This document shows, piece by piece, positions 13,343 through 52,067 of a stretch of 64,000 nucleotides of DNA; position 1 is the first letter of the stretch, and every line of letters starts with the position of its first letter. Both the position numbers and the translations under genes were made by a program. This DNA is from Buchnera aphidicola (Macrosiphum gaurae) (lineage in GTDB: Bacteria; Pseudomonadota; Gammaproteobacteria; Enterobacterales; Enterobacteriaceae): assembly GCF_005080965.1 (NCBI RefSeq), contig NZ_CP034867.1, forward strand, positions 372,001-436,000, given 5' to 3'. The notes under the pieces were generated by a model, which made no database searches, was not told the DNA's origin, and saw only the letters and a list, made by a program, of their open reading frames with translations.

Positions 13343-13356
13343 AAAAAATATTCTAA

Positions 13357-13384
13357 AAAATGGTGCTTTTAAAAGTACCATTTT
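13357..13384 (+). terminator. Terminator after rpmF
   Basis: AAAATGGTGCTTTT and AAAAGTACCATTTT pair over 14 bp with a single G-U, forming a near-perfect palindrome right after the rpmF stop codon. It ends in TTTT followed by ATT. Confidence 0.75.
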
Positions 13385-13720
13385 ATTAAATAAAATATAA
13401 ACATAAAATTTATTCAATAAATAAAAAAATTATTGTAAAAACTAATAAAAAATATACCACATAAAAAATTTTATTTCATTAATACAATTGTTTATTAGAA
13501 ATTTAATTTTTATATATGTTAATAAATAAAATATATTTTTTTAATTAAAAAAATAAATTTAACATAAGATAATTAATATAAAAAAAAATATTTTAAATAA
13601 TACGAATCTATTATATTCAAGATATTTATAAAATGTAAAAATCTATAAAATTAATAAAATAAGTTAAGAAAATATTTTATAAAATATTGCAAAATTTCAT
13701 TTTAAAAGAAGGAAATTATA
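13385..13720. other. Non-coding spacer where plsX and fabH stand in E. coli
   Basis: 336 bases with no credible reading frame. It is extremely AT-rich, with no detectable similarity by eye to plsX or fabH, so those genes are fully eroded rather than recently broken. The last 20 bases carry GAAGGAAA, the ribosome-binding site of fabD. A fabD promoter must lie within. Confidence 0.6.
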
Positions 13721-14676
13721 ATGACTTTATTCGCAATGTTATTTCCAGGACAAGGTTCTCAATATATAGGTATGTTATCTTCATTTTTCTATAAAAATAA
13801 CAACATTATTCAAAAAACTTTTGATGAAGCATCAGAGCACATTCAGATTAATTTACTTAAATTAATACAAGAAGGACCTAAAATAAAACTAAATAAAAGT
13901 CAATATACGCAAGTAGCAATATTAACTGCATCAGTTTCAATTTATCGTTTTTGGAATGAACAAAATGGAAAAAGTCCATCATTTATGTTAGGTCATAGCC
14001 TTGGTGAATATTCTGCTTTAGTATGTTCTGGTGCAATAGAATTTTCTGATGCATTAAAGATTGTTTTTTTACGTGGTCAACTTATGGAAGAAGCAACTAT
14101 AAACAGACCTACTTCAATGCAAGCCGTTATTGGAATAGATGAAAAACAAGTTCAAATGGCATGTTTAGCATCATCAAAAAAAAAATTGTTTCTTTAGCAA
14201 GTATAAATTCTCATAATCAAATTGTAATTTCAGGAGATAGATCTTCTGTATATGAAGCTAGTTTAAATTGTAAAAGACTAGGTGCTAAACATATTTTTAA
14301 ACTTAAAAATAAAATAGCAGCTCACTCTGAATTAATGAAACCAATATCTGAAAAATTGAAGAAAATATTAAAAATTATTACTATAAATCCACCTAAAATT
14401 CCAGTTATTAATAACGTTGATGTAAAATTTGAAAATACTAGTAAAAATATTAAAAAAGCATTAATTAGACAGATCTATAATACTGTAAGATGGAAAGAAA
14501 TTATAGATTTTATAAAATCAAAAAAAATTTTCGTAATGTTAGAAATTGGACCTAATAAAATATTAACTAATTTAAACAAAAAAGATAAAAATATTATTTC
14601 ATTAAGCTCAAATAATTTAAAAAATTTTTTAATAGCATTTAAAAAAATTAACAAAGGAAAAAATGAACGAAAATAA
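13721..14676 (+). CDS. fabD: FabD, malonyl-CoA:ACP transacylase, split by a frameshift in an A10 tract
   Basis: Loads malonate onto ACP for fatty-acid synthesis. The first part (13721-14197) carries FPGQGSQ and the active-site GHSLGEYSALV (Ser93). It goes out of frame at ten consecutive A (14176-14185) and stops at 14197. The second part, read -1 relative to it from the tract onward, continues exactly where the homologue should (IVSLASINSHNQIVISGD), with the catalytic-histidine region AAHSELMKP and VINNVDVKFE, to 14676. One extra A, or two fewer, restores a full protein of about 318 aa. RNA polymerase slippage on poly(A) is documented in Buchnera, so the gene is probably functional; a sequencing error or a true pseudogene are alternatives. 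It overlaps fabG by 14 bases. Confidence 0.85.
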
Positions 14677-15397
14677 AAAAACTGCATTAATAACAGGTGC
14701 AAATCGTGGAATAGGAAAAGCAATTGCTAAAAAATTAATACAAAAAGGGATTCAAGTTATTGGAACATCTACTACTAAAGATGGAGTAAATTCTATTAAT
14801 TCTTATTTAAAAGAAAATGGATTTGGTTTAATTTTAAATTTAAACAATACTGATTCTATTAGAGAAAAAATTCAAGAAATTTATAAAAAAAAAATATGTA
14901 TTGATATATTAATTAATAATGCTGGAATCAGAGAAGATAATTTATTAATAAAAATGAAAAACAAAGAATGGGAAGATGTAATAAAAATTAATTTATCATC
15001 AGTATTTTATCTTGTGAAATCTGTTATTCGATCAATGATTAAAAAACGACAAGGCAGGATTGTTACTATTAGTTCAATAATTGCTTATACAGGTAATAAA
15101 GGACAAGTCAATTATAGTGCTTCAAAGTCAGGACTAGTTGGATTTCATAAATCACTAGCATTAGAAGTGGCTTCTAAAGGTATTACTGTTAATATTGTAT
15201 CACCAGGTTTTATTAAAACAGATTTTACTAATACATTAAATTTAATTCAATATCAAAAATATTTATCTAATATTCCTATGAAAAGATTAGGAAAAACAGA
15301 AGAAATAGCAGATGCTGTTATTTTTTTAACTTCAAATGAATCATCATACATAACAGGCCATACATTGCATGTAAATGGTGGTATGTATATGATATAA
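14663..15397 (+). CDS. fabG: FabG, 3-oxoacyl-ACP reductase
   Basis: NADPH-dependent reductase of the fatty-acid elongation cycle. It is a classical short-chain dehydrogenase: cofactor motif TGANRGIGKAIA at the N-terminus, NNAG (about residues 85-88), and the catalytic Ser...YSASKSG with Tyr and Lys. Length 244 aa equals E. coli. The AAAGGA site lies inside the 3' end of fabD, and the ATG overlaps fabD, so initiation may depend on translation of the frameshifted upstream gene. It contains an in-frame A10 tract (14885-14894). Confidence 0.97.
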   Translation: MNENKKTALITGANRGIGKAIAKKLIQKGIQVIGTSTTKDGVNSINSYLKENGFGLILNLNNTDSIREKIQEIYKKKICIDILINNAGIREDNLLIKMKNKEWEDVIKINLSSVFYLVKSVIRSMIKKRQGRIVTISSIIAYTGNKGQVNYSASKSGLVGFHKSLALEVASKGITVNIVSPGFIKTDFTNTLNLIQYQKYLSNIPMKRLGKTEEIADAVIFLTSNESSYITGHTLHVNGGMYMI

Positions 15398-15442: not shown

Positions 15443-15685
15443 ATGAAAAATATTGAAAAACGTATAAAAAAAATCATTATTGAAAAATTAGATATAAAAG
15501 AAGAAACGATTTTTAACGAAGCATCTTTTATAGATGATCTTGGTGCAGATTCGCTTGATACAGTAGAATTAATTATGGCTTTGGAAGAAGAATTTGATAT
15601 TGAAATATCAGATGAAGAAGCAGAAAAAATTAACACAGTACAAAAATCAATTGATTATGTTAAAAATCGATATTCAAAAAAATAA
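15443..15685 (+). CDS. acpP: Acyl carrier protein
   Basis: 80 aa, acidic, four-helix carrier protein. The phosphopantetheine attachment serine is Ser37 in [24 protein letters not shown] precedes the ATG. In E. coli fabF, pabC and mltG separate acpP from tmk; none is present here, tmk starting 113 bases later. FabD, FabG and AcpP are thus the only fatty-acid genes of this locus. Confidence 0.97.
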
Positions 15686-25355: not shown

Positions 25356-26369
25356 ATGTTTTATTATTTAATTCGTAAACTGTTATTTTTAATAGAACCT
25401 GAAAAAGCTCATTTTTTAACATTAAAATATCTCAATATTAAAAATTTTCTGCTCTTTGATTTTTTTTTTTATAAAACTAAGATGGCATCAAAAAACATTC
25501 AATGCATGGGTTTAACTTTTAAAAATAAACTTGGTACTGCAGCAGGAATAGATAAAAATGGAGAATACATACATTCTTTATCAAAATTAGGATTTGGTTT
25601 TATTGAAGTAGGTACTGTGACTCCTTTACCTCAAATTGGAAATCCAAAACCTAGAGTTTTTAGATTGATTCCCATAGAAGGCATAATTAATAGAATGGGA
25701 TTTAATAATCTAGGAATAGATAATTTAATTGATAATATAAAAAAATCGAATTTTAAAGGAATCATAGGTGTTAATATTGGAAAAAATAAAAATACTAGAA
25801 TTGAACATGCAGTTAATGATTACCTGATATGTATAGAAAAAGTTTATTGTTATGCTAGCTATATTGCAATTAATATTTCTTCACCAAATACTCCAAATTT
25901 AAGAAATTTACAATACGGAATTCTTTTTAAGAATTTATTATATAAAATAAAAAAAAAACAAAAAGAACTCCATAAAAAATATTTAAAATATGTTCCTATA
26001 GCAATCAAAATTTCACCAGACCTATCAAAAAAAGAATTAATTTATATTTCAAAACAATTGATTCAATATAAAATAGATGCAGTCATTGCAACTAACACGA
26101 CATTAGATCATTCATCAGTATCTGGACTAGAAAATAGTTTGCAAAAAGGAGGATTAAGTGGATTTCCTTTACAAAAAAGAAGCACTGAGATAATTTCAAT
26201 ATTATCAAAAAATTTACAAAAAAAAATTCCTATTATTGGAGTTGGTGGTATCAATTCTATAAAATCAGCTAAAGAAAAAATTGCATCAGGAGCTACTCTA
26301 ATACAAATGTATTCTGGGTTAATATATCATGGTCCAAAACTAGTACAAGAAATTATTAATAAAGCATAA
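25356..26369 (+). CDS. pyrD: Dihydroorotate dehydrogenase (class 2, quinone-linked)
   Basis: Fourth step of pyrimidine synthesis, at the inner membrane. An N-terminal amphipathic extension typical of class 2 enzymes is present ([18 protein letters not shown]). Further motifs: [22 protein letters not shown], the catalytic Ser in [14 protein letters not shown], and the FMN-phosphate site IIGVGGI. Length 337 aa (336 in E. coli). It contains a T11 run (25460-25470) and an A10 run (25949-25958), both in frame. Confidence 0.97.
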
Positions 26370-50732: not shown

Positions 50733-52067
50733 TTAAAGTAATTGAATAGTTTCTTTAATATCATTAGCTAATTGGTAAGCTTTTAAATAATTTTCACTTT
50801 CTACCATAATTCTAACACATGATTCTGTGCCGGATTTACGAACTAAAACACGACTGTTTTTACCTAAAATATTTTTATATCGTAAAAGAATATTTTTTAT
50901 TTTTAGATCTTGTTCTAAATTTTTATCTTTTTTTAAAAAAACATTTAACAAGACTTGAGGAAAAAGTTTTATTCGATTTGATAAATTATATAAAGTCATA
51001 TTATTATTAATCATACTTAATAAAACTTGTAAACTAGCAATAATTCCATCACCAGTAGAGTGTTTATCTAATAAAATAATATGGCCAGATTGTTCAGCTC
51101 CTAACATCCATTTTTTTTCTTTAATTTTCTCACATATATTACGATCTCCGACTTCTGTAGCATAAAAAGGAATTCCAAGTTTTTTTAAAGCCAAAATCAC
51201 ACCCGTATTAGTCATTAAAGTTCCTACCACACCACCTTTTAATTTCTTTTCTTTTAAATATTCCTTGGCAATAATATAAATTATTTGATCTCCATCAACT
51301 CTGTTACCTAAGTGATCTACCATAATCACACGATCTCCATCACCATCAAATGCTAAACCAATATCAGCTTTTTCTAATAGAACTATTTTTTTTAATTTTG
51401 CAATATCAGTTGATCCTGAATTTTGATTTATATTAATTCCATTGGGATGAATAGAAACTGTGATTACTTTCGCGCCTAAATCTTCAAAAAGTTTAGGTGC
51501 TATATTAAAAGTGGAACCATTAGCACAATCTAAAATAATAGTAAATTTTGATAAATTTAAATCTTTAGGAAAAGTATCTTTACAAAATTCAATATATTTT
51601 TTTTCGGGATTTATAACGTTATTTGAACAACCATAATTTGTATAATGAGAATAAAAAAAAGTATGTTGTATTTGTTGTTCGATAGAAAATTCTATTTTTT
51701 TAGTAATTTTAATTCCATTTTTATAAAAAATTTTTATCCCATTATCATAAAAAAGATTGTGAGAGCCTGAAATGACAATTCCTGCAGAAGCATTTAAAAA
51801 TTTAGTAAAATATGCAATTGCTGGAGTAGGTATACAGTTAGCTAATAAAGTAGATACACCTGCAGACAAAATACCAAATTCTAAAATAGACTGTAACATA
51901 GATCCAGAAACACGTGTATCTCTTCCAATAATAATTTTTTTTGTTTTATCTTTACCTAAAACTGTTCCAATAGACCAGCCTAATTTTAATAAAAAATTTG
52001 GTGTGATTGGATTTATACCTACTTTCCCGCGTATACCATCTGTTTTAAAATATTGCAAAAAAGTCAT
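50733..52067 (-). CDS. glmM: Phosphoglucosamine mutase
   Basis: Converts glucosamine-6-P to glucosamine-1-P for UDP-GlcNAc and wall synthesis. The catalytic phosphoserine Ser102 is in VISGSHN; the metal loop is DGDGDRVIMVDHLG; sugar recognition GAEQSGHI; phosphate-binding RKSGTESCVRIMVE. 444 aa (445). folP, which lies between ftsH and glmM in E. coli, is missing. Confidence 0.97.
   Translation of the reverse strand: MTFLQYFKTDGIRGKVGINPITPNFLLKLGWSIGTVLGKDKTKKIIIGRDTRVSGSMLQSILEFGILSAGVSTLLANCIPTPAIAYFTKFLNASAGIVISGSHNLFYDNGIKIFYKNGIKITKKIEFSIEQQIQHTFFYSHYTNYGCSNNVINPEKKYIEFCKDTFPKDLNLSKFTIILDCANGSTFNIAPKLFEDLGAKVITVSIHPNGININQNSGSTDIAKLKKIVLLEKADIGLAFDGDGDRVIMVDHLGNRVDGDQIIYIIAKEYLKEKKLKGGVVGTLMTNTGVILALKKLGIPFYATEVGDRNICEKIKEKKWMLGAEQSGHIILLDKHSTGDGIIASLQVLLSMINNNMTLYNLSNRIKLFPQVLLNVFLKKDKNLEQDLKIKNILLRYKNILGKNSRVLVRKSGTESCVRIMVESENYLKAYQLANDIKETIQLL

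Follow-up and report, generated by a model that had tools for sequence, protein, structure and literature searches.

The fabD gene of Buchnera aphidicola (Macrosiphum gaurae) is frameshifted at ten consecutive adenines and is probably rescued by slippage

The fabD gene of Buchnera aphidicola (Macrosiphum gaurae) appears to be functional even though a run of ten adenines puts its DNA out of frame by one nucleotide. Protein-level constraint on its second half, despite the break, is strongly supported by comparison of coding sequences across the genus, and the cell very probably restores the reading frame as it expresses the gene, since the second half stays constrained. Slippage of RNA polymerase is the best explanation of this restoration and a fairly probable one: products would be mixed, the fraction of transcripts with one A gained (or two lost) would yield full-length malonyl-CoA:ACP transacylase, and selection would act on this frame-restored fraction, a partial yield of FabD presumably being sufficient.

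The symbiont genome comprises 654,448 bases in three contigs, and the stretch of 64,000 nucleotides analysed here (the window) lies within its 643,561-base chromosome. Positions 14176-14185 of the window (+ strand) are exactly ten A's, at which the two halves of fabD meet; the letters and the reading frames thus bear out the original prediction that the gene is interrupted there. The first half (13721-14197, + strand, frame 0, 158 aa) begins with the ATG at 13721, includes the GHSLG serine motif and ends in a TAG (14195-14197, + strand) shortly 3' of the tract. The second half (14186-14676, + strand, -1 frame) belongs to an open reading frame (14161-14676, first ATG at 14161) that is open from 5' of the tract to the TAA at 14674-14676 and includes the histidine of AAHSELMKP (xxHSxLMKP). 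This division of the essential motifs between the halves, also predicted, was confirmed in the translations; we take the GHSLG serine and the AAHSELMKP histidine to be the catalytic residues of FabD. The halves are offset by -1, which confirms that one extra A or two fewer (+1 or -2 nt) joins the frames. The TIGR00128 fabD profile (length 290) matches the two halves collinearly (3-150, 177 bits; 150-285, 122 bits), neither alone reaching the cut-off of 260.9 and the two together spanning the profile, and PF00698 likewise matches both (3-134 and 143-273). By homology, both pieces are FabD (ACP S-malonyltransferase), transacylase activity being predicted for the product; the FabD of L007, a relative in which the gene is intact, aligns with FabD chains of the PDB.

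Upstream, fabD is separated from rpmF (named by gene order) by a spacer of about 380 bp (13343-13720) with no plus-strand open reading frame of 50 aa inside, presumably the place of plsX and fabH in E. coli. Downstream, fabG (14663-15397, + strand, above the cut-off of TIGR01830) starts 14 nt before the end of fabD and has, by eye, an AAGGA-like stretch of its own just 5' of its start. The suggestion that slipped transcripts tune fabG translation found no support in this arrangement, consisting of only a 14-nt overlap and a separate AAGGA-like stretch.

Comparison with fabD of related Buchnera, proposed as a check of the original prediction, agrees with it. A genus search covered 36 genomes including the present one (G000), all of which possess fabD; frame state was scored with intact FabD as the query, and breaks were located before run lengths were looked at. 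The gene is in a single frame in 26 of the 36 species and in two frames in 10, and all ten broken genes break at an A run of at least 9 nt. Eight are broken at the same tract as the present genome, which is A10 in G000, G011, G006, G002, G030 and G012, A12 in G034 and A11 in G009; those of G017 (A9) and G025 (A10) break at another run, 30-40 nt upstream of the main tract. Eight of the ten require +1 nt (-1 geometry) and two, G011 and G034, require -1 nt (+1 geometry), so that the direction differs between sister species (G000/G011, G034/G012). No additional stop or shift was detected in fabD in any of the 36 genomes, the first half being stop-free and the second open to near the reference C-terminus; starts were examined in part, with an ATA at the matched start in G019 and matches beginning at residue 3-4 in G022 and G033. 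At the main tract, 8 of the 11 species with at least ten A's are out of frame, versus 10 of 236 other A runs of this length in the surveyed coding spans (Fisher p ~2e-8, ignoring shared ancestry and with the total of 247 runs approximate).

Similar breaks were identified in other genes. A survey of 44 genes in the neighbourhood of fabD, which yielded 1567 gene instances across the 36 genomes (17 were missing), flagged 48 gene-genome pairs as frameshifted, of which 37 passed, 8 were excluded (lpoB of G019 and G021; rlmL of G003, G020 and G029; pncB of G019; pyrB of G029; pyrD of G019) and 3 fabD genes (G002, G006, G034) were restored because the check had run two codons past the natural stop. 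A clean break was defined by an A or T run of at least 9 nt at the break, so that, fabD excepted, the long runs are there by construction. The 40 clean breaks are in glmM (13), pyrD (11), fabD (10), holB (2), murA, rluC, rrmJ and nusA (one each, that of nusA, in G027, being weak and near the C-terminus). Of these, 35 require +1 nt and 5 require -1 nt, counts that do not represent independent events, and the run is longer at the five -1-nt breaks (mean 11.0 versus 9.7 for the others, rank test p 0.004, ancestry ignored). A deletion bias of DNA at runs could be the source of the 35:5 excess. Identities were checked for glmM, pyrD, holB, murA, rluC, rrmJ, fabG and acpP; the remaining gene names of the survey are presumed.

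The glmM gene, intact in the window (50733-52067, - strand), is out of frame at A9 or A11, near aa 43-48, in all 13 species of one Buchnera clade, which includes the symbionts of Aphis fabae, A. glycines, A. nasturtii, A. helianthi and Schizaphis graminum; parsimony indicates a single origin (G005, G019 and G025 treated as unknown). The dN/dS of its C-terminal part is 0.13-0.31 in seven within-clade pairs versus 0.16-0.31 in four pairs whose glmM is unbroken, and that of its short N-terminal part is 0.09-0.61 in the seven within-clade pairs; by these ratios, both sides of the break are apparently still constrained. Breaks in pyrD occur at T9 or T10 near the N-terminus in G002, G004, G007, G011, G012, G021, G028 and G030, always requiring +1 nt, and pyrD of the window has an in-frame T11 at 25460. 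The sister species G017 and G020 have a common A11 frameshift in holB (L134, L135), with both halves open. In contrast to the clean breaks, many stops are found in pncB, pyrD and pyrI of G019, in rlmL of G020 and G029, and in lpoB of several species, and rlmL of G003 is shifted once, at a place that has no long run.

The second half of fabD evolves as a protein on the broken lineages. In a two-omega MG94 model of 18 taxa, with nine broken tips (G025, the tenth broken species, was left out) and several fits ending at the limit of 80 iterations, second-half omega is 0.066 on the G000 branch (lnL -3907.56, versus -3918.42 at omega = 1, neutrality costing 10.9 units), 0.054 on G000 and G011 together (-3904.71 versus -3937.28, 32.6 units), and 0.128 on the nine broken tips versus 0.175 elsewhere (-3907.62 versus -3999.10, 91.5 units); outside the tested branches, the three fits give 0.16-0.18. 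The broken tips are neither more relaxed nor clearly more constrained, since separating them gains only 1.5 log-likelihood units over a single shared omega for the second half; first-half omega is also alike on broken tips (0.157) and the rest (0.167). For the present genome and its nearest relative G011, which is also broken and shares 89% identity with it over the first half, pairwise NG86 (17 rows) gives a dN/dS of 0.073 for the second half, compared with 0.263 for the first and 0.183 for fabG. The second half is also the lower in G034-G012 (0.186 versus 0.254) and G000-G006 (0.164 versus 0.211), and the higher in G000-G002 (0.248 versus 0.181) and G002-G030 (0.281 versus 0.162). The original prediction, which took the second half to be still under selection and hence the frame to be restored, thus gains from dN/dS far below 1 and from the rejection of neutrality; elevated dN/dS in the second half, named there together with cDNA of only ten A's as a counter-indication, was looked for and not seen, the G000 value being the 0.066 given above. 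If the break in G000 is recent, the omega of that branch would carry less weight.

RNA polymerase slippage is favoured as the restoring step because G011 and G034 have to be shifted the other way, and ribosomes slipping by -1 cannot supply that. In PMC5574713, 151 of 157 transcriptional insertions in Buchnera, versus only 16 of 57 deletions, fall within homopolymer runs, mainly of A or T, with rates that rise with run length; the paper also reports that no transcription error restoring a frame was found in Buchnera LSR1. Corrected transcripts of 12-50% are cited in the review PMC5009743, and of 30% in PMC3017870, so that published transcript data on frame correction are in conflict. The polymerase slippage of the original prediction therefore stands in part: it is the best mechanism and accommodates both shift directions, but the present genome would obtain an identical protein from a -1 slip of the ribosome, and the transcript literature is split.

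Programmed -1 ribosomal frameshifting of the dnaX type uses an A_AAA_AA. heptamer, and the fabD junction likewise contains an in-phase slippery heptamer (TC A_AAA_AAA in frame 0, within 14176-14185). Unlike dnaX-type sites, fabD has no stable 3' structure that could be found (the RNA 3' of the tract does not exceed shuffled sequences in stability, z 0.28 and -0.07, pseudoknots being outside the model), no Shine-Dalgarno-like stretch 5' of the tract by eye, and no conserved -1 geometry (two of the ten broken genes are +1, and 26 of 36 genes are in frame). A dnaX-like ribosomal signal was rejected on the lack of structure and the variable geometry of the relatives.

Simple -1 slippage of ribosomes on A_AAA_AAA, which would rebuild FabD from ordinary A10 mRNA, is the strongest competitor of polymerase slippage and still rather unlikely. 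It is consistent with the heptamer of the present genome, with the -1 geometry of eight of ten broken fabD genes and of 35 among the 40 clean breaks of the survey, and with the absence of restoring transcripts in PMC5574713, but it does not account for the +1 geometry of fabD in G011 and G034 and of three glmM genes, it would have to operate without the structure and the Shine-Dalgarno-like stretch just mentioned, and it would require slips on UUU at the T9 and T10 breaks of pyrD.

The alternative that fabD is dying, with repeated hits at a mutational hotspot and no restoration, is improbable. A runs are indeed indel hotspots, true pseudogenes are present among the neighbours in some species (lpoB, rlmL, pncB, pyrI), and fabD is listed as lost in Buchnera of Phyllaphidinae together with fabB, fabZ, fabI, fabG and acpS (PMC11188193, Table 2). 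Against it, neutrality 3' of the break is rejected, and none of the 36 fabD genes has a second lesion, whereas real pseudogenes nearby have many stops. Unlike the joint loss in Phyllaphidinae, the elongation-cycle partners appear to remain in the present genome, which has open matches to one ketoacyl synthase, one FabA/FabZ-type dehydratase, two SDR reductases (one of them fabG) and one AcpS, along with an intact acyl carrier protein gene, acpP (15443-15685, + strand, above the cut-offs of the NCBIfam acyl carrier protein models). A match to AccA was looked for in the genome and not found, and a search of the genome with PF00698 for a second acyltransferase yielded nothing beyond the two fabD halves. 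We infer that this Buchnera needs FabD, presumably with malonyl-CoA supplied from elsewhere; as the search turned up no other acyltransferase, an error-prone step probably underlies its fatty-acid synthesis. PMC3890641 places fabD among the genes with a predicted deleterious substitution in Buchnera of M. persicae.

Less probable again is an assembly error or a polymorphism at the DNA level, with in-frame copies present in the cells. Homopolymers are prone to error, the A10 of the window's own genome comes from one assembly, and some single-base indel polymorphism in Buchnera cultures is described in PMC3164680; but ten species are concordant, and the split is repeated in other records for several of them. 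When the read-through protein was compared with 5.8 billion proteins clustered at 90% (7998 candidates scored), all 26 intact species found their own full-length FabD (96.6-100% identity per half) among the best 120 of 6180 hits, whereas within those 120 all ten broken species matched only full-length FabD of other species (68-88%), the top one for the present genome being 78% identical. Searches half by half found half-length entries that match broken species, among them halves identical to those of G006 (pointing to A. lactucae), G034 (Hyperomyzus lactucae) and G009 (Brachycaudus cardui). Records beyond the 36 genomes are included: an entry identical to the second half of G002 (P0193, from A. 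caraganae, longest contig 642,370), and split halves close to G011 (P0121, 98.6%, on a 645,910-base contig), G030 (P0124, 99.3%, on a 641,716-base contig) and G017 (P0130, 97.2%). There are also split copies whose identity to each of the 36 is below 86%, such as P0126 and P0195 (common longest contig, 11,369 bases). Some split entries are carried by several sources and may reflect one shared assembly. The assembly error that the original prediction itself named as a danger is thus made unlikely by the relatives and by the other records that repeat the split.

It is scarcely credible that FabD is made as two associating polypeptides, the second starting at the internal ATG at 14161: a second-frame ATG does lie 15 nt 5' of the tract in the present genome, and ATG precedes the tract in five of the ten broken species, as GTG/TTG does in G030, but four of the ten have no start 5' of it (the ATG of G017 and the TTG of G034 lie behind the tract, the first start of G011 lies about 100 nt behind it, and the searched stretch of G025 contains no start), no Shine-Dalgarno-like stretch is seen by eye before the ATG at 14161, and this ATG arises from an Ala-Cys codon pair.

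The break itself may be old. A tree of ten neighbouring proteins (3468 columns) needs six changes between the in-frame and broken states of fabD, compared with an average of 8.9 for shuffled labels (six or fewer in 1.05% of 2000 shuffles); parsimony with three states gives 8 changes. Two-state Mk models reconstruct as broken (P at least 0.93) the ancestor of G000 and G011, their ancestor with G006 and G021, and the ancestor of these with G002 and G030, and under the ancestral-state models the in-frame gene of G021 is a later return. The out-of-frame state most likely dates from an ancestor that this Buchnera has in common with the symbionts of A. pisum and A. kondoi, and the tract would since have moved between frame states. 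Because the ancestor with G002 and G030 is reconstructed as broken and the split of A. pisum and A. kondoi is put at 27 +/- 8 million years in PMC3164680, the break may be at least 27 +/- 8 million years old, a model-dependent age in which the ancestral state derives from the two-state model and parsimony.

Rescue of this kind is already known in insect symbionts, and fabD is one case of a broad pattern. Genes of Buchnera and Blochmannia that have a frameshift in poly(A), with correction at the transcript level, were reportedly described by Tamas and co-workers in PNAS in 2008. They and fabD have in common a single A-run frameshift, halves that are otherwise open and a long-term insect symbiont; the evidence for them is from cDNA, whereas for fabD it is from selection and phylogeny. 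Two features of slippage-rescued poly(A) frameshifts are found in fabD, a run of at least 9 nt in an otherwise open gene and constraint past the break.

Earlier papers have described homopolymer frameshifts in Buchnera, their recurrence within one gene and their long-term retention in Blochmannia (PMC3164680, PMC3017870 and PMC3890641). In PMC3890641, Buchnera gene models split at poly(A) were joined on the ground that conservation was apparent on either side, and PMC3164680, which covers four host species, describes convergent homopolymer frameshifts in Buchnera of Aphidinae, with murF as its example, which it counts as inactivations while calling regulation by slippage plausible. The frameshifts of PMC3164680 resemble that of fabD in host subfamily, type of lesion and repetition in one gene, and fabD may already be among the genes that paper lists. 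The passages of PMC5009743, PMC3017870 and PMC3890641 on such genes that were examined do not name fabD as a transcript-corrected case. The disagreement between reports of corrected transcripts and the null result of a transcriptome-wide study of errors is directly testable at fabD, which suits this purpose because its -1, +1 and in-frame relatives are natural controls.

As judged from comparative data, it is possible, if on balance doubtful, that certain A and T runs of Buchnera are long-lived frame switches tolerated by selection, and that the 35:5 excess, with the longer runs at the five exceptions, is the imprint of a machine that adds nucleotides more readily than it drops them. If so, fabD would have drifted among in-frame, -1 and +1 states under constraint on the protein, the glmM break would have been kept throughout its clade, and comparative genomics alone would show the slippage spectrum of the restoring step, whether of polymerase or of ribosome. 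A gene like fabD is readily annotated as a pseudogene; should its frame be restored in expression, reduced genomes would need correction both in their gene counts and in their metabolic models.
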